The notes beneath the pieces are model-generated. The model made no database searches. It had not been told where the DNA came from and saw only the letters and a list, made by a program, of their open reading frames with translations. 35,162 bases of DNA, from the NCBI GenBank assembly GCA_035541015.1, contig DATLFM010000010.1, positions 1 to 35,162 of the forward strand, read 5' to 3'. A program made the translations under genes and the position numbers. This document shows positions 837-8,601 of the stretch, in pieces. Position 1 is the stretch's first letter. Every line of letters starts with the position of its first letter. The DNA comes from Candidatus Thermoplasmatota archaeon. GTDB lineage: Archaea > Thermoplasmatota > SW-10-69-26 > JACQPN01 > JAIVGT01.

Positions 837-1163
837 ATGCCGCAGCCCGCGCTTGCGCCCCCGGTGAATCCGCGGTTCGTCTACGGCACGATGGGCGCGG
901 TGCTCGTCATGTTCCTCGTCGTGGCCGCCGTCGTCCTCCCGATGGGCCTCGTCCTCGGCTTTGCGATGTGGCTCCTGCTGCTCCTGTCCTTCTCGGCCGC
1001 CGGCGCGGCGAAGGGCAAGACCGAGGGGCCCCGCTGCGTCGAATGCTCGGCACGGCTGGACGCGGGCTTTGCTTTCTGCATCCAATGCGGCGCGCATCCG
1101 CTCGCCGGCGGGTCGGTTCCGGCGGCCGAAGAGGTCCCCGCCGCCTCGCGGTCCTTTCCCTAG
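837..1163 (+). CDS. small membrane protein with C-terminal zinc ribbon
   Basis: A 108-aa protein. Residues about 15-60 form one long or two closely spaced hydrophobic membrane segments. They are followed by a cytosolic zinc-ribbon half with CVEC and CIQC pairs 15 residues apart (about residues 63-82) and a short acidic/Pro-rich tail. Archaeal genomes hold many such membrane-anchored zinc ribbons of unknown role. The ATG at 837 follows a plausible TATA element. Its stop codon overlaps, tail to tail, the stop codon of the CARF-type gene on the other strand (1160-1163). The membrane plus zinc-ribbon architecture is visible; function is not. Confidence 0.8.
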   Translation: MPQPALAPPVNPRFVYGTMGAVLVMFLVVAAVVLPMGLVLGFAMWLLLLLSFSAAGAAKGKTEGPRCVECSARLDAGFAFCIQCGAHPLAGGSVPAAEEVPAASRSFP

Positions 1164-1741
1164 TCGGGCTTCTCCACGAGGGCCTTCCGATAGTAGGAGC
1201 CAAGGTCGGTCGGCCACGCTTGCGTAGCGTCGCTTCCAAGCGCGCCATGCCGCCGCAGCGAGAGCATCGCCGCCCTGGCGCGCGCAAGCGGCAATCCGGC
1301 CCGCCGCGCCAGATCCCCGTGCGCGCGCCGCCCGTCGAGGGCGGCAAGGACCGCAAGCTCGTCGCCGCCGAACCGACCGGCCACGGGCATCGCGCGAAGG
1401 ACCGGCAGGCACACGGGCTTGTGCTCGAGGAACCAGGCCTCGACGCCGCGCGAGAGGCACGCGAGCACGGCGCCAAGGCTCATGGCGCCGGTGCCGCCGT
1501 CCACGGCCACGCGCGTCGAGTCGGGCAATCCTGCCAAGAGCCCCTCCATCGCCCGGAGGCACCCGAGCACGTCGTCGGGCGGGACCTCGAGGACCGTGGC
1601 CTCCTCGCCCAGGGCCGACGCAAGCGCCCGGCCGCGACCCTCCGGCGCCACGAGCGCGAGGCGGTCGTACCCGAGCTTTCGTCGCGGGGCTGCAAGATCG
1701 TCCTTGGCGGCGGCCACGACGACGAGGGTGCGCACGGTCAT
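1160..1741 (-). CDS. CARF-like Rossmann / winged-helix regulator (second of a tandem pair)
   Basis: A 193-aa protein. Residues 1-120 read as a small Rossmann-like domain: an N-terminal hydrophobic strand (TLVVVAA), alternating strands and helices, and the sequence VAVDGGTGAMSLGAVLAC (GGTG at 82-85), which matches the ligand-binding glycine turn of CARF domains. Residues about 123-172 form a predicted winged helix (GGDELAVLAAL...DLARRAG...). This is the Csa3/Csx1-regulator layout but more divergent than its neighbour. Its ATG overlaps the stop of the upstream CARF-HTH gene by 4 nt (ATGA, 1738-1741), so the two are almost certainly co-translated and may form a heterodimer. CARF domains are known to bind cyclic oligoadenylates; whether this one does is inference. 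No cas gene lies in the window. Confidence 0.75.
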   Translation of the reverse strand: MTVRTLVVVAAAKDDLAAPRRKLGYDRLALVAPEGRGRALASALGEEATVLEVPPDDVLGCLRAMEGLLAGLPDSTRVAVDGGTGAMSLGAVLACLSRGVEAWFLEHKPVCLPVLRAMPVAGRFGGDELAVLAALDGRRAHGDLARRAGLPLARARAAMLSLRRHGALGSDATQAWPTDLGSYYRKALVEKPD

Positions 1742-2373
1742 TCCGCCAGGAGAAGCTCGGCGCTCGGCACGGCGCGAAGGCGTTCGGAGCGGCTGTCGTC
1801 GGGATCGGGCTCCCCTTCGACGAGGCCGCGCCTGCGAAGCTCGCGGACGTGGTGGCTTACCGTCCCCTTGGCAAGGGAGAGGCCCTGCGCGATGTCGCGC
1901 GCCTGGCAACCGGGACGATCGCGGACGAAGAGGAGGACGCGGCGTCGCTTGGGCGAAAGGATCTCCGCGGCGGAGAGTCGAAGAAGCGGCAGGGATTGGG
2001 CGACGTTCGTGCGCTCGTTCACGTGCGTCACGCGCACGCCTTCGAGCACGCCGGCCAGGAGTGCTGCGGCCTGCAGCACGCGCGTGCCGCCGGCGATGCT
2101 CACGACGACCTCGCGCCTGGCGGCGCTCCGTTTTCGAATCTCCCGCCGGAGGCGAAGGCAGGTGGCGACAAGATCGAACGCGTCGACGGCCACGAGCTCC
2201 GCCTCGAGTCCGAGCCTGCGCGCGTCCTCGCGAGCCGCCCGCGCGGCGCGCTTGCTCTTGCCGTCGGCGTCCGTGTCGTGAAAAAGTACGAGCGCCTCCT
2301 TGTCCTCGTGCGACCGCAGCGCGGGCAGCACCTTCTCCGGGTGGAATCCGACCGTCGCGAGCACGACTGTCAT
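1738..2373 (-). CDS. Csa3-like CARF / winged-helix transcription regulator
   Basis: A 211-aa protein with the clear layout of archaeal Csa3. The N-terminal CARF-type Rossmann domain starts TVVLATVGFHPEKVLPALRS, has an acidic strand end LFHDTDAD and a glycine turn SIAGGTRVLQAAAL (GGT at 95-97). The winged helix-turn-helix at about 140-187 carries DIAQGLSLAKGTVSHHVREL as recognition region and RRGLVE as wing. The ATG at 2373 is preferred over an upstream GTG at 2394 because the family's first strand starts here and a purine-rich GGGAAGG lies just upstream. It is translationally coupled to a second CARF-HTH gene. Csa3 proteins regulate cas and spacer-acquisition genes in Sulfolobales; no CRISPR locus is visible nearby, so the target may be elsewhere or may not be CRISPR. 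Confidence 0.85.
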   Translation of the reverse strand: MTVVLATVGFHPEKVLPALRSHEDKEALVLFHDTDADGKSKRAARAAREDARRLGLEAELVAVDAFDLVATCLRLRREIRKRSAARREVVVSIAGGTRVLQAAALLAGVLEGVRVTHVNERTNVAQSLPLLRLSAAEILSPKRRRVLLFVRDRPGCQARDIAQGLSLAKGTVSHHVRELRRRGLVEGEPDPDDSRSERLRAVPSAELLLAE

Positions 2374-2496: not shown

Positions 2497-3288
2497 ATGA
2501 CCCTCCGCGCCGTCGCCTTCGACCTCGACTCCACGCTCGTCGATTTCCTCCGGTACAAGCGCCTGGCGGCGGAAGCGGCGGCGTTGGCCATGGTGGACGC
2601 CGGCCTCGATCTCCCACCCGCGCTTGCCACCGAAACGCTCTGGCGGGCCTACGAGGAGGCCGGCCTCGATGGCGACCGGGGCTTCCGCGCCTTCCTCGAA
2701 AACACGTGCGGCGCCGCCGATCCGACGCTTCTTGAAGCCGGCATCGTCGCCTACCTTCGGGCCAAGGACGCCCACCTCGAACCCTACCCCCGGACCGCGC
2801 GCACGCTCGTGGAGCTCGTGCGCGAGGGCCTGCTCCTTGCGATCGTGACGGACGCTCCCCGCGAGAAGGCCCTCGCGCGGCTGTCGCGGCTGCGCCTGCT
2901 CCCGTTCTTCGACCTCGTCGTCACGCGCGACGACACGCTCCAGGGCAAGGCCGACGACCAACCCTACCGACAGCTCCTCGCCCGCCTCCATCACCCCCCG
3001 TCCGCGGTGCTCATGGTGGGGGACCACCCGGCCCGCGACGTGCGCCCCGCCCGCGCGCTTGGGCTCTGGACCGCGCAGGCCGCCTACGGAACGCAGCCGC
3101 GCTTCGCCTCCACGCGACCCGAGGACGAGCCTCACTTCGAGCTCTCGCGCATCGACGAGCTTCCCCGCGTCGTGCGGGAGCTCGGCACGCCGCGGACCCC
3201 GCGCGAAGCCACCCCGGCGCCGTCAGCCTCAAGTCCCCCCGCGCGGCTTGCCGTCGCGTGGACACCTACCACATCTGGGTCGACCTGA
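2497..3288 (+). CDS. HAD-superfamily hydrolase (phosphatase-like)
   Basis: A 263-aa protein with all four HAD motifs: DLDSTLVDF (Asp9 nucleophile, Asp11), TDAPREKAL (motif II Thr), the motif III lysine in LQGKADDQPY, and VGDHPARDV (motif IV acids). A helical cap domain lies between motif I and II (about residues 17-105), as in the phosphoglycolate-phosphatase/haloacid-dehalogenase group. The substrate cannot be told. The ATG at 2497 is chosen because it is followed at once by the conserved first strand; an upstream in-frame ATG at 2422 would start inside the inverted repeat. The C-terminal 30 residues after the Rossmann core are low-complexity Pro/Ala/Ser. The gene overlaps the next one by 31 nt, suggesting co-transcription. 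Confidence 0.88.
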   Translation: MTLRAVAFDLDSTLVDFLRYKRLAAEAAALAMVDAGLDLPPALATETLWRAYEEAGLDGDRGFRAFLENTCGAADPTLLEAGIVAYLRAKDAHLEPYPRTARTLVELVREGLLLAIVTDAPREKALARLSRLRLLPFFDLVVTRDDTLQGKADDQPYRQLLARLHHPPSAVLMVGDHPARDVRPARALGLWTAQAAYGTQPRFASTRPEDEPHFELSRIDELPRVVRELGTPRTPREATPAPSASSPPARLAVAWTPTTSGST

Positions 3289-3593
3289 AGAACTCCCACC
3301 GCGACCTCGAGTTCGCGCAAGCCGTCGACGCCTACCTCGGCCACCTGCAGAAGCAGGGCTTGCTCGAGGGCTGGCGCCTGCAGCGGCGGAAGCTTGGCCT
3401 TGGGCCCCGCGAGCTTGGCGAGTTCCACATCGCAATCGAGACGCGAGACCTCGCGCAGCTCGACGCCGCCTTCTCCGCGGCCGCCGCGCGCGCGGGCGAG
3501 ACGGAGAAGCTCCACGCGGCCGTCTACGCGAACGTGACGAACTTCCGCTCCGCGCTCTACCGCGACTTTCCCGACCCCGTCCGCGTGCGATGA
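3258..3593 (+). CDS. small conserved protein (possibly DUF6614-like)
   Basis: A 111-aa soluble protein starting at GTG 3258, inside the 3' end of the HAD gene. The sequence (YHIWVDLKNSHRDLEF, LEGWRLQRRKLGLGPRELGE, FHIAIETRDLAQLDAAF) alternates strands and helices in the way of a small ferredoxin-like or dimeric alpha/beta barrel fold, and resembles the uncharacterised DUF6614 type from memory. The family assignment is weak; that it is a real gene is well supported by coding bias and the conserved-looking aromatic/charged pattern. The GTG start sets a 31-nt overlap with the HAD frame. No catalytic motif can be named. Confidence 0.72.
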   Translation: MDTYHIWVDLKNSHRDLEFAQAVDAYLGHLQKQGLLEGWRLQRRKLGLGPRELGEFHIAIETRDLAQLDAAFSAAAARAGETEKLHAAVYANVTNFRSALYRDFPDPVRVR

Positions 3594-3882: not shown

Positions 3883-6800
3883 CTAGTTGAGGCCGGTCCC
3901 ATACTCGTCGCGCGCCGGCGGCGTCTCGTCCTTCCCGTCCGAACCGGCTCCCAGGTGCTCGTCGACGGCCGCGCGAACGCTTGCGAGGAGGTCGTCGGCG
4001 GCCGCGCGTCGGGTCGACTCCTCCTCCAGCCGGCCTTCGGCGCGCGCCAGGTCTTCGCGCGCGCGATCGGCGGCCGTGCGAAGCTCGTCGAGCGCGCGCG
4101 TGGCCTCCGCCACGCGGGCCTCGAGCCCCTCGCGGGCGGCGCGCTCGGTGCGCAATTCCTCGCGAAGGCCTCCGGCTTCGCGCCGGAGGTTCGAAAGCTC
4201 GGCCGAGAGCGCCTCGCGGGCGCGGGCCATCTCGTCGCGCGCGCCCTCCGCGCGCGCACGCTCGCTCCGTTGGGTCTCCGCCTGCTTGCGGGCGCTTGCA
4301 ACGTCCTTTTCGAGCTCGCGCGCGCGGGCGAGGGCCGCGGACAAGGATTGCGATCGTTCGGCCAGGGCGGCCTCGACGCGCGAGCGCGCGTCGGCGGCGT
4401 GGGCGGCGTGGTCGCGCGCCTGCGCGAGCTCCGCTTCGAGGCGCTCGCAGCGCAACGCGGATTCGGCCAGGCGCTCGCGTGCCTGCTCGAGGAGCTCCTG
4501 CCGACTCGCGATCTCGGCGGATTGGGAGCGGCCCGCGGCGGAAAGGGCCTCGATGCGCTCGTGCCGGTCCGCGAGCTCTTCGCGCAACCGGCGCTCCGTT
4601 TCGACGTGCAAGGCGAGCTTGCCGCGCGCGTGCTCCCGCTCGTCGGCGGCGGCGATGCAGGCGGCTTCCCACCGTTGCGTCTCGGCGTGGGCCTGCGCCG
4701 CGCGTTCGGTGGCGGCGGCGAGCTTGCCGGAGAGCGCTTGGACCTCCGCGTGGGCGACGTCGAGCTCCCGCGCGAGGGTTTCGCGCGCCGACGACTCGCG
4801 AGCGTGCGCCTGGGCAGCCTGCGCGAGCGCGACGCGCGCGCGGTCGAGCGCGAGGGCGGTTTGCGAGAGTTCCGCCGTGACCGCGTCCCGGTCGGCGCGG
4901 AGCGCGTCGCGCTCGGAGGCGAGTGCCTCGCCACGGCGGCGGGCCTCGCCAAGATCCCGTTCGCGCTCGGCGAGGGAGGCCGCAAGCCGCTCGGCGTGCG
5001 CCGCCGTCTCGTCGCGAAGGGTCTCGGCCCGCTTCCGCGCGTGGCCTTCGGCGTCGAGGCGCGCGGAGAGTTCCGCCGCGCGCGTGGAAAGATCGGAAAG
5101 GGTCCGGTTTTGCTCGTCGCGCTCGTGGGCCAGCATGCCCAGGCGTTCGAGCGCCTGCGCCGCGGCGTTCTCGGCCGCGCGGCGAAGCTCGAGCTCTTCG
5201 GAGACGCGCAGCAGGAGGTCGTCCCGTTCGCGAGCCAAGCCGTCGCGTTCGCGGGCCGTTTCGACCGCGCGAGCCGAAAGCGTCTCCCGGTCGGCGGCAA
5301 GCGACGTCGCGCGCGCGGCTACGTCCATCCAACGCGCGTGCGTTTCGTCTCGCTGACGCTCGATCTCCTCGCGGCCGCGCGCCACCTCGGCGAGGAGGGC
5401 TTTCGCGTCGGCGGCGCGGCGATGCGCGTCGAGTCGAGCAAGGCGCTCCCCTTCCAGGGCAAAGGCGAGACGCTCGCATCGGAGGTGGAAGGCGTCGCGC
5501 TCGCCGGAAAGCGCCGCTTGGGCGGCTTCGGCTTCCCGTGCTTGATGCTCGGCCTGCGCAAGTTGCCGCGCAAGGGTGTCGCGCTCGCTTGCGAGGGCCT
5601 GACGCTCGGCGTGCGCCTCGGCGAGCCGGCGAGAGAATCCCTCGGTTTCCGCGGTCGTGGCGAGCAACTTTGCTTGAAGGTCGGAGTCGCGCTTGCGCAG
5701 GTCGGCCAGGCTTTCGTCCTGCCGGGCGAGCCGCTCGCAGGCCTCCTCGAAGCGGCGGGAGAGGTCGTCGATCGTGGCGCGTTGGGCCGCCTCGCGGGCG
5801 GAGGCGTCGGCCAGGCGCGCGGCAAGCGCCTCGCGTTCGGCGACGATCGAATCGGTCGTGGCCGTGACGCGGGCCGTTTCGAGCTCGCGGACAAGCCGCG
5901 CGGCCGTCTCCTTGGCCCGCTCGGCTTCCTGCCGGGCCGCAACGAGCGAGGCTTCGTGCGCGCAAGCAAGCGCAAGGGCCTCGTCCCGTTCTCGGCTGGC
6001 GATGACGAGCGCCTGCTCGGCGTGCTCCCATCGGCGGGCGAGCTCGTCGTCGGGCGCGCGGTCCGTCGCGGGCTCGTCCTCCAACGGCGCGACGGTGGAA
6101 GCGGCGGGCCGGTCCGCAAGCTCGCGCGCGAGCGCGTCGCGCTCGGCAAGCGCGCGCTCGCGCGTGGCCTCGGCCTCCTCGATTCGCGCGTTGGCGCGGT
6201 GTCGTTCCGTGACGTCGCGGTAGAGCCAGATGCGCCCGTGCGGCGCGCCGTCGAGGAGCACGGGCACGCAGTCGCGCTCGAGCACGCGGCCGTCCGCGAG
6301 CGCGAACGTCTTGCCCGTGACGGGGCGGGGCGATGCGCGCAGGGCTTGCGTCTCGGCGTGGAAGGCCGGGGCATCGGCGAGCGGGGCGGCGCGGAAGGCT
6401 TCGTCGGCGGGGCGGCCCAGGCGCGATCCGGGCGGACCTTGGAGCCGCAGCGTCTTTGCGAGCGTCTCGTTGAGGTAGATCGTGCGTCCGGCGTCGTCCT
6501 CGAACAGGACGCCGCAGCCGAGTCCCTCAAGGAGGGCCGACAGGCGCGCGGCGGAGAGCTTGCGGGGATCCGGGCTTGTCGTCAACGGCCGCTCGCGGAT
6601 GGCAACGACGCGTCGGCGCGTCGCCGGGTCCTCCACGGCGACCATGGAGATGGAGACTGGAAGCGTGGTCCCGTCGCCGCGGCGGCGGATCGACTCGTAC
6701 ACGGCGGCGCCGTTGGCAAGGGCTGTGGCGAGCGCGTCGCGGGTCTCGGCGCGCCGTTCGGGCGGAACGGAGAGATCCAGCATGGGCAGGCCCACCGCGC

Positions 6801-6936
6801 GCTCCTTGGGAATGCCAAGGAGGGTTTCGGCTCCCGGGCTCCAGCACAGCACGCGGCCGTCGTCGGAGACGGCAAGGAAAGCGTCCCGAGTCTGGTTCGC
6901 CAGGGATTGCAGGAAGGCGGGCGTTTCGGGCGCCAT
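3883..6936 (-). CDS. two-PAS sensor with a very long coiled coil and no output domain
   Basis: A 1017-aa protein. Residues about 8-115 form a PAS domain (FLAVSDDGRVLCWSPGAETL, LLGIPKERAVG) and about 125-250 a second, weaker PAS domain (GVLFEDDAGRTIYLNETLAK ... WLYRDVTERHRANARIEEAE). Residues about 250-985 are an almost unbroken Ala/Glu/Arg-rich heptad coiled coil (ARELADR, LERLGMLAHERDEQN, and so on). No histidine-kinase, GGDEF, HTH or membrane segment is present; the end is an acidic, Gly-rich tail. It probably acts as an elongated soluble scaffold or sensor whose output is a partner protein. The ATG at 6936 follows a TATA box at 6978-6986 and a GAGG. The repetitive codons leave equally long open frames on the opposite strand, which I do not believe. 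Confidence 0.85.
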   Translation of the reverse strand: MAPETPAFLQSLANQTRDAFLAVSDDGRVLCWSPGAETLLGIPKERAVGLPMLDLSVPPERRAETRDALATALANGAAVYESIRRRGDGTTLPVSISMVAVEDPATRRRVVAIRERPLTTSPDPRKLSAARLSALLEGLGCGVLFEDDAGRTIYLNETLAKTLRLQGPPGSRLGRPADEAFRAAPLADAPAFHAETQALRASPRPVTGKTFALADGRVLERDCVPVLLDGAPHGRIWLYRDVTERHRANARIEEAEATRERALAERDALARELADRPAASTVAPLEDEPATDRAPDDELARRWEHAEQALVIASRERDEALALACAHEASLVAARQEAERAKETAARLVRELETARVTATTDSIVAEREALAARLADASAREAAQRATIDDLSRRFEEACERLARQDESLADLRKRDSDLQAKLLATTAETEGFSRRLAEAHAERQALASERDTLARQLAQAEHQAREAEAAQAALSGERDAFHLRCERLAFALEGERLARLDAHRRAADAKALLAEVARGREEIERQRDETHARWMDVAARATSLAADRETLSARAVETARERDGLARERDDLLLRVSEELELRRAAENAAAQALERLGMLAHERDEQNRTLSDLSTRAAELSARLDAEGHARKRAETLRDETAAHAERLAASLAERERDLGEARRRGEALASERDALRADRDAVTAELSQTALALDRARVALAQAAQAHARESSARETLARELDVAHAEVQALSGKLAAATERAAQAHAETQRWEAACIAAADEREHARGKLALHVETERRLREELADRHERIEALSAAGRSQSAEIASRQELLEQARERLAESALRCERLEAELAQARDHAAHAADARSRVEAALAERSQSLSAALARARELEKDVASARKQAETQRSERARAEGARDEMARAREALSAELSNLRREAGGLREELRTERAAREGLEARVAEATRALDELRTAADRAREDLARAEGRLEEESTRRAAADDLLASVRAAVDEHLGAGSDGKDETPPARDEYGTGLN

Positions 6937-6986: not shown

Positions 6987-8601
6987 CGGAATCGTCGGGG
7001 GCTCGGGGACGTTCGGCCAAGCGGGCGGCGTCCCGGCCGGGCGAACCGCCCGCGCGCGCCAACGTCCGCACGTCGTCGAGGGTGGATGCTTCCTCGGGCC
7101 GCTTGTCGTCTCGTAGGCGGGCGATGCGCGCGAATCGAAGCGCGTGGCCGGACTCGTAGCGGGGGCTGCGCTGGATGTCGTTGTATTCGATCTCGACGAC
7201 GATCTCCGGCCGGACGCGGACCCCCCAGGGTTCCTCGGTCACGGCGATCGCGGCCAGGCGCTCCGTGAGCTCTTCGAAGAGCGCGTCGGTGGGTCCCTGG
7301 TACGTCTTTCCCACCATGGCCCACGCGCCGTCGGCCGCGCGAACGCCCAGGTGGTAATTCGAAAGCCACCCCCGCCGACGTCCGGATCCCCACTCGGCCG
7401 CAAGGATGACGGCGTCAAGCGTCGCCGCGGCCTTCACCTTGCGCCAGGCGCCGCCGCGAACGCCCGGCGCGTAGGGCGCGTCGAGGAGCTTTGCCACGAC
7501 GCCTTCGTGGCCCTCCGCGAGGCTTGCGCGATAGAACGCCTCCGCCTCGCCGAAGGAGCGGGGGCGCGCGTGCGGGACGAGCGACTCGGCCGGGGCGATT
7601 GCCAAAAGCGCGGCGAAGCGCTCCTCGTAGGGGCGGTCGAGAAGGCTCTCCTCGCCGATCCGCAGCGCGTCGAAGAGGTGCACGCGGACGGGAACGTCAC
7701 GGGCGGTCGTTTCCACGCCGTGCCGGCGCACCGTGCGGCGCGAGAGGTCCTGGAACGGGCGCGGACGACCGTCGGGCGAAAGCGCCACGGCCTCGCCCTC
7801 GACGACAAACGCGTCGGCGGAAAGCTGCTCCGCGAGGGAAACGGCCTCGGGAAAGCTTGCCGTCACGTCCGTGAGTCGCCGCGTGAAGACGCGCGAGGCG
7901 CGCCCCTGACGATGCAGCTGCAGGCGGACGCCGTCGAGCTTGGCCTCGAGCGCAAACCGCTGCGTGCCCTCCGAAAGCGCCTCCGCGAGGTCCGCGGTGG
8001 CCACGGCAAGCATGGGCCGGACGGGAACGAAGAGCCGAAGTCCCACGCGCCGGGTCGCATCGCAGCCCTCCACGACGGCAAGGCGGGCCACCTCGCCGAC
8101 GTCGCCGAGCAGCTGGTGCGCGCGATCGAGGACCAAGCGGTCGCAGCCCGTGGCAAGCTGAACGCCGTCGAGCACGATGCCGTCGTGGACGCCGTGCCGC
8201 ATCTCGCCCCCCAGGATGGCCCAAAGCCACGGCCGCTCGCGCTCGTCGGCGCGGGCGAACAGCCCTTCGAGCGCGCGCTCGCGGCGACGCCGCGACGCGG
8301 GCCCGGAGACGTTGGCGAGTTCGTCGAAGGCCCGCCAGACGGCAAGCACCGTGAGGGGCTCCCCGGAAAGCGTGGCTTGGAGGGGTCCGCGACGCTCGCG
8401 CAGCGCCGCCGTCCCCACCGCAAGCGCGCGGGCGTCGGTCGGAGAAAGGGGGCGCCCGACGAGGAGGTTCCCCGCCGGCGCGATCTCGGCGGGCGAAAGG
8501 CCGCGAAGGAAGTCGGCGACCCGGCGCGCCTTGGCGAGGCGAGAAGGCTCCCGCGCGAGGGCGTCGCACACGGAGCACAGCGAGGCAAACGTCGTCTCCA
8601 C
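6979..8601 (-). CDS. lig: ATP-dependent DNA ligase
   Basis: A 540-aa enzyme of the archaeal/eukaryal DNA ligase type; it seals nicks during replication and repair. Residues 1-180 are the helical DNA-binding domain. The nucleotidyltransferase domain carries the adenylation motif EAKLDGVRLQLH with catalytic Lys221, motif III FVVEGEAVAL, motif IV EGHEGVVAKLL and motif V WRKVKA. The C-terminal third, with YHLGVRAADG and VVEIEYNDIQ, is the OB fold. Length is slightly below the roughly 560-600 residues usual in archaea because the C-terminus is short. ATG 8601 starts at the expected helical N-terminus. It is divergent from the methyltransferase gene and only 42 nt from the next minus-strand start, whose TATA box overlaps the ligase stop. 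Confidence 0.93.
   Translation of the reverse strand: METTFASLCSVCDALAREPSRLAKARRVADFLRGLSPAEIAPAGNLLVGRPLSPTDARALAVGTAALRERRGPLQATLSGEPLTVLAVWRAFDELANVSGPASRRRRERALEGLFARADERERPWLWAILGGEMRHGVHDGIVLDGVQLATGCDRLVLDRAHQLLGDVGEVARLAVVEGCDATRRVGLRLFVPVRPMLAVATADLAEALSEGTQRFALEAKLDGVRLQLHRQGRASRVFTRRLTDVTASFPEAVSLAEQLSADAFVVEGEAVALSPDGRPRPFQDLSRRTVRRHGVETTARDVPVRVHLFDALRIGEESLLDRPYEERFAALLAIAPAESLVPHARPRSFGEAEAFYRASLAEGHEGVVAKLLDAPYAPGVRGGAWRKVKAAATLDAVILAAEWGSGRRRGWLSNYHLGVRAADGAWAMVGKTYQGPTDALFEELTERLAAIAVTEEPWGVRVRPEIVVEIEYNDIQRSPRYESGHALRFARIARLRDDKRPEEASTLDDVRTLARAGGSPGRDAARLAERPRAPDDSAI

Follow-up and report, generated by a model that had tools for sequence, protein, structure and literature searches.

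CARF domains are almost universally read as receivers of cyclic oligoadenylate made by CRISPR systems. The regulators closest to the genes analyzed here are the Csa3 proteins (Csa3a and Csa3b of the Sulfolobales; PF22662, TIGR01884), in which a CARF domain is joined to a MarR-like winged helix. Csa3 genes are linked to cas genes of subtype I-A (PMC4012209), and the proteins are homodimers that bind cA4. Their ligand pocket, which extends across the dimer interface, carries the motifs T-h-G-F-(N/D)-E-X4-R and L-X2-G-h-R, binding of cA4 moves the winged helices, and the site proposed for Csa3a is CAPPa (TCCC-N8-GGGA), upstream of the BRE/TATA (PMC8699464). A 2014 survey found that 9 of 145 CARF-bearing genomes lack both cas1 and cas10 (PMC4012209). 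RtcR is a non-CRISPR protein with a divergent CARF domain that governs the RNA-processing enzymes of RNA repair operons, and it responds to 5' tRNA halves that carry a 2',3'-cyclic phosphate end (PMC7790460). The mycobacterial PafBC regulator is a WYL/winged-helix pair encoded in one operon that forms a stable heterodimer (PMC5656591).

The window (the whole stretch of DNA analyzed, a 35,162-base contig of a Thermoplasmatota archaeon) encodes two CARF/winged-helix proteins, CARF1 and CARF2, and Csa3 is the top PDB match for both. CARF1 partly matches the Csa3 pocket motifs, with T-h-G-F and G-G-T-R, and the promoter has a palindromic site. Unlike Csa3, the system is an unequal, coupled pair; the genomes that carry it lack Cas10 and in most cases Cas1, its palindrome differs from that of Csa3a, and its candidate target is an RNase J-like gene. 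The HFX_2341-like regulators (PF19810) also have a CARF-like N-terminal domain and a winged helix, and CARF2 orthologues score above the cut-off for that family; however, the solo HFX_2341-like copies of similar architecture in genomes G002, G006 and G205 form a separate clade and do not occur in the CARF1-CARF2 arrangement. Both of our families are already known as CARF clades through the PADLOC CARF3 models PDLC01853 and PDLC01856, which match CARF1 and CARF2 respectively but are silent on pairing, operator, independence from Cas10 and target. Outside the 2020 CARF classification, the literature searched contains no description of a fixed unequal pair, its Cas10-free distribution, the palindrome or a ribonuclease target. 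PafBC offers a parallel in its workings, since it too consists of two unequal sensor/winged-helix proteins encoded in a single operon, and the CARF1-CARF2 heterodimer would be its counterpart; PafBC has WYL rather than CARF domains and serves the DNA-damage response, and no homology is claimed. RtcR differs in being a bacterial AAA+ activator of another architecture. Together, a CARF protein that senses tRNA halves and a winged-helix heterodimer provide precedent for each half of the mechanism proposed below.

A coupled pair of CARF/winged-helix genes

The preliminary description of this DNA reported two neighboring minus-strand genes joined by an ATGA overlap, and the coordinates and overlap agree with the sequence (Table 1). 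The GGT(G) turns that it noted are also present, as SIAGGTR in CARF1 and VDGGTG in CARF2.

Table 1. Features of the CARF1-CARF2 locus, in window coordinates.
Feature	Position	Strand	Remarks
CARF2, divergent CARF domain and degenerate winged helix	1160-1741	minus	193 aa; hhalign, PADLOC, AlphaFold
ATGA stop/start overlap, CARF1 to CARF2	1738-1741	minus	Sequence
CARF1, CARF (Csa3_N) domain and MarR-like winged helix	1738-2373	minus	211 aa; Csa3_N above cut-off
Predicted operator, perfect inverted repeat GATCGTTCGAT-TGGGC-ATCGAACGATC	2424-2450	none	Between CARF1 and the divergent HAD gene
HAD-family phosphatase gene, divergent from CARF1	2497-3288	plus	Pfam Hydrolase, 81 bits

The upstream protein is Csa3-like, as had been proposed. 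CARF1 matches Pfam Csa3_N with 41.2 bits (cut-off 27) and MarR_2 with 45.5 bits, falls slightly below the cut-off of NCBIfam TIGR01884 (57.1 against 60.2 bits) and of PF19810 (29.4 against 30 bits), and matches PADLOC PDLC01853 over its full length (E=4.6e-54). The AlphaFold model (pLDDT 93) has Csa3 6wxq as its top PDB match (E=9e-10), and CARF1 is the single Csa3_N gene of its genome. The residues at the pocket motifs are T-V-G-F-H-P-E and I-A-G-G-T-R; T-h-G-F is retained across relatives, as is a T(V/I)(S/N)HH recognition helix. CARF1 is the probable DNA-binding and sensing subunit.

CARF2 is more divergent, again as described. It has only a sub-threshold HTH_IclR match in Pfam, no match above cut-off in NCBIfam (including TIGR01884), and only chance matches when its sequence is compared with the PDB. 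The preliminary description had allowed that it might not adopt a CARF or Rossmann fold at all, and it nevertheless models as a CARF domain plus winged helix: the AlphaFold model has a pLDDT of 90.1, its first four PDB matches are Csa3 chains (6wxq, 2wte and 6w11, with 6wxq at the top, E=8e-8), the best PADLOC match is PDLC01856 (1.3e-19), and hhalign aligns the CARF1 and CARF2 profiles with a probability of 98.7 over 147 columns. Foldseek matches for the models of the pair also include ring nucleases. CARF2 orthologues pass the Csa3_N cut-off, and those of G265 and G293 match PF19810 with 50.1 and 42.2 bits (cut-off 30), whereas the window CARF2 has no match to it. The window CARF2 also lacks both Csa3 pocket motifs, while orthologues keep T-h-G-F-D; T-h-G-F is present in several CARF2 proteins outside the class of the window genome. 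The conserved T(V/I)(S/N)HH helix is missing from CARF2, with eight residues deleted there in G005 and G006, and CARF2 branches are mostly longer than those of CARF1, pointing to faster evolution.

Conservation across the Thermoplasmatota

A scan of genome contigs with the single CARF1 sequence gave no match, and an alignment-based scan found three relatives. Searching 390 Thermoplasmatota genomes with a profile built from four relatives (E < 1e-20) identified CARF1 in 18. That the two genes belong together is borne out in these relatives: 15 of the 18 genomes, from eight families, have clear CARF1-CARF2 pairs in the same gene order (16 with the doubtful G029, in which a very divergent gene adjoining CARF1 may be CARF2 and which is excluded from the clear cases). 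CARF2 lies directly behind CARF1 in the window's own genome (G000), G003, G006, G076, G265, G167, G360, G250, G291, G191, G086, G293 and G382; the other clear pairs are split across two contig ends (G005) or cut at a contig end (G297). Where spacing was measurable outside the window genome's class, the genes overlap at start and stop or are separated by at most 10 nt (G076, G250, G291, G191, G086, G265, G167, G293, G382 and G360). CARF2 was not found in G023, where an RNase J-like gene directly follows CARF1, nor in G189, where the contig stops just behind CARF1. AAA+ ATPase genes are present near CARF1 in both of these genomes (loci L064 and L063, respectively). A match to the A2 profile in G001 was rejected as a different protein with winged-helix repeats, and a P0002 match in G004 as sitting in an unrelated open frame.

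In a maximum-likelihood tree all CARF1 proteins lie to one side of a branch (support 94/84) and all CARF2 proteins to one side (88/66), allowing a single origin for each, with the solo HFX_2341-like proteins as a separate clade (100/100). By these sequence comparisons, the pair is old. G006 additionally carries two convergent HFX_2341-like CARF/winged-helix genes (L066, 6740-7399 on the plus and 7401-8069 on the minus strand) that are distinct from CARF1-CARF2 and have solo relatives in L067 and L068.

CRISPR context

The preliminary description reported no cas genes within 35 kb of the pair. None are present in the window, nor are array-like direct repeats, tRNA genes or Rfam matches; however, the window is the entire contig and the pair begins 1.16 kb from its end, so that this view covers one side only. 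The absence is supported by genome-wide family searches, which found no Cas1, Cas10 palm domain or Cas7/DevR in the 2.2 Mb genome (96% complete). The Cas10 palm domain was found in none of the 21 related genomes searched, while the positive controls (Sulfolobus, Methanocaldococcus, Methanosarcina and Thermotoga) were detected. Cas1 was not found in nine of the 15 clear pair genomes and is present in six related genomes (G003, G005, G086, G167, G291 and G297); in G167, which is closed, the strongest Cas1 match is about 330 kb from the pair. Cas7/DevR was not found in any of the 15, and among the genomes searched it occurs only in G189, one of those where CARF2 was not found.

No cas genes adjoin the pair in the relatives' loci that were read, which together with the family searches disposes of the concern that the pair might always stand beside cas genes. 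Two readings had been offered for a pair standing apart from cas genes. Remote control of a CRISPR system is unsupported in this genome, which is without Cas1, Cas10 and Cas7, and the same absence, with Cas10 in none of the 21 genomes, points instead to a non-CRISPR use. A cyclic oligonucleotide made by Cas10 is therefore unlikely to be the ligand of the pair.

A predicted palindromic operator and its candidate targets

The inverted repeat between CARF1 and the HAD gene has perfect arms of 11 bp each and a core, GTTCGA-N7-TCGAAC, at 2428-2446. The HAD reading frame could start at 2422, with the ATG at 2497 the likely start. Nearer to CARF1, between its start and the palindrome, is another short inverted repeat (2402-2420, CGGCGGC-GTCAA-GCCGCCG) that could form a hairpin in the 5' UTR. 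The exact core dyad is likewise found upstream of CARF1 in G076. The 2.2 Mb genome contains exactly two exact copies of the core, and the second (contig C110, 28370-28388; 8371-8389 of L080) is flanked by a beta-CASP RNase J-like gene and a divergent gene for a Lon-like protease. The RNase J-like gene starts at a GTG that follows GGAGG and is 157 nt from the core copy, and the Lon/S16-like reading frame begins about 45 nt from it, so that the target at this site could be either gene or both.

Exact core copies occur at about 0.23 per Mb in eight genomes (counting the C110 copy and leaving out the two at CARF1), which gives a chance of about 5e-5 of finding one in that gap of about 220 bp, uncorrected for the small number of linked gene families that would likewise have been accepted. 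The RNase J-like family had been seen near CARF1 prior to the search for palindrome sites: its gene is ATGA-coupled behind CARF1 in G023 and lies close by in G250 and G003. Two exact dyads are present in G001, which lacks the pair, and chance copies may thus number up to about one per genome. Copies with one mismatch are found in G076, beside a TATA-like stretch and 66 nt upstream of the start of the RNase J-like gene, and in G003, just upstream of the HAD gene that precedes the RNase J-like gene. Only in G000 (exact) and G076 (one mismatch) does a dyad precede the RNase J-like gene itself; the other pair genomes have no motif directly upstream of this gene.

Most other families have a second motif, ATACCGTYTGAA, 50-80 bp upstream of CARF1. 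It matches 11 times in 2,340 bp against 0.07 expected, the pattern having been derived from some of these same sequences, and a de novo search recovers it in six of seven genera, against at most four in 60 shuffles. It is absent upstream of the RNase J-like gene in these other families. A genome search with AATACCGTYTKAA returned only the CARF1 site of G382 and one site inside a gene of G191, and the latter was rejected as a chance match. Because motifs upstream of CARF1 occur in many families and those upstream of the RNase J-like gene in few, autoregulation by the pair is well supported across the phylum at the level of predicted sites, while the RNase J-like gene is a supported candidate target in G000, G076 and G003 only.

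The RNase J-like protein encoded on C110 has the metallo-beta-lactamase HxHxDH motif, with H96, H98, D100 and H101 invariant, and its structural matches include INTS11, with EF2904, RNase J and CPSF73 the closest (best 2az4, E=4.5e-43). Each of the 15 clear pair genomes has one copy of its gene (A3), with an extra fragment match in G003. It is also present in G023 and in the pair-less G002, and absent from G001, G004, G189 and G029; pair-less genomes are too few for a test of co-occurrence.

Proposed mechanism and alternatives

From the computed folds, pairing, conservation, palindrome and its placement, and the absence of the cas genes searched for, we infer a set of protein contacts, a direction of regulation, a ligand and an output, and on balance we lean toward a CRISPR-independent, ligand-responsive switch made of two co-inherited CARF/winged-helix proteins that controls its own operon and an RNA-processing response. 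By analogy with Csa3, CARF1 would read the 19-bp palindrome and repress or tune its own operon. Coupling and co-inheritance suggest a CARF1-CARF2 heterodimer, in which the translationally coupled CARF2 would join CARF1 through the CARF domains; a mixed dimer or tetramer would be asymmetric, since CARF2 of the window lineage has lost the ligand and DNA-reading signatures, and could set sensitivity or switch DNA binding off. A perfect palindrome is the site expected for a CARF1 homodimer and counts against the heterodimer reading; with the conserved CARF1 helix and the eroded one of CARF2, it suggests that the DNA-reading form contains two CARF1 subunits, so that the role of CARF2 may be that of a partner or modulator, not of one half of a simple heterodimer that reads DNA. 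The palindrome before the HAD gene and in the RNase J-like promoter region points to an RNA-processing or nucleotide-stress response as output, and an RNA end or another nucleotide signal would be a likelier ligand than cyclic oligoadenylate made by Cas10. We put forward only tentatively, as possible but doubtful, the broader proposal of a phylum-wide Cas10-free circuit in which CARF1 and CARF2 form an obligate complex that detects RNA fragments or endogenous nucleotides through its asymmetric pocket, with a beta-CASP ribonuclease and a phosphatase as the enzymes that it switches. A Cas10-free pair kept across a phylum, with a palindrome and a candidate ribonuclease target, makes other CARF ligands directly testable, with the DNA site, both proteins and the predicted targets identified, and with them the question of what else CARF domains sense and whether CRISPR borrowed them.

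The perfect dyad and the helix conserved in CARF1 but not in CARF2 (where G005 and G006 have the deletion) would also suit an ordinary homodimeric Csa3-like repressor or activator, coupled for dosage only to a fast-evolving paralogue with its own job, either as a separate regulator or, given the ring nucleases among the Foldseek matches, as a sink for ligand comparable to a CARF ring nuclease. We consider this rather unlikely, as co-inheritance and tight coupling over eight families exceed the needs of dosage and CARF2 lacks the conserved DNA-reading helix for acting alone. That CARF domains bind cyclic nucleotides, and that nuclease genes (PIN and beta-CASP) adjoin the pair in some genomes, would also fit the sensor arm of another cyclic-nucleotide defense, answering a CBASS-like CD-NTase signal rather than RNA stress; but no cyclase gene was noticed adjoining the pair, and its order is fixed across eight families, unlike most defense islands, making this improbable.

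Membership of CARF1 in the Csa3 fold family and the Cas1 genes of six relatives are what speaks for a Csa3 that governs distant cas operons in answer to Cas10-made cyclic oligoadenylate. With Cas1, Cas10 and Cas7 missing from the window's nearly complete genome, Cas10 from all 21 genomes searched, and Cas7/DevR confined to one genome where CARF2 was not found, this has very little probability left and is largely refuted for the window's own genome. Scarcely credible is the idea that the pair is what remains of a lost type I system, in decay and retained by chance: motif loss in CARF2 within the window genome's class would fit decay, but the frames are open throughout, the CARF1 motifs are conserved, and operators and gene order are retained across the phylum.

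Other genes near the pair

Nine genomes have a HAD phosphatase gene adjacent or close to the pair; these genes are of two types, one present in G003, G005, G006 and G029 and a shorter one in G250, G293, G360 and G382. In the window, a DUF6614 protein gene adjoins the HAD gene (3258-3593, plus strand). In G003 (L009, 393-875) and G360 (L058), CARF2 is followed by genes for a solo CARF protein and then a protein with a PIN domain. For the latter protein of G360, the PADLOC match is to the PIN part of a fused CARF-PIN protein, so in both genomes the two genes look like a split form of such a fusion, in a putative operon with the pair. Further along the window (3883-6936, minus strand) is a gene whose 1017-aa product has a PAS domain at its N terminus and an apparently very long coiled coil; a cytoskeletal or sensory role is possible for it.
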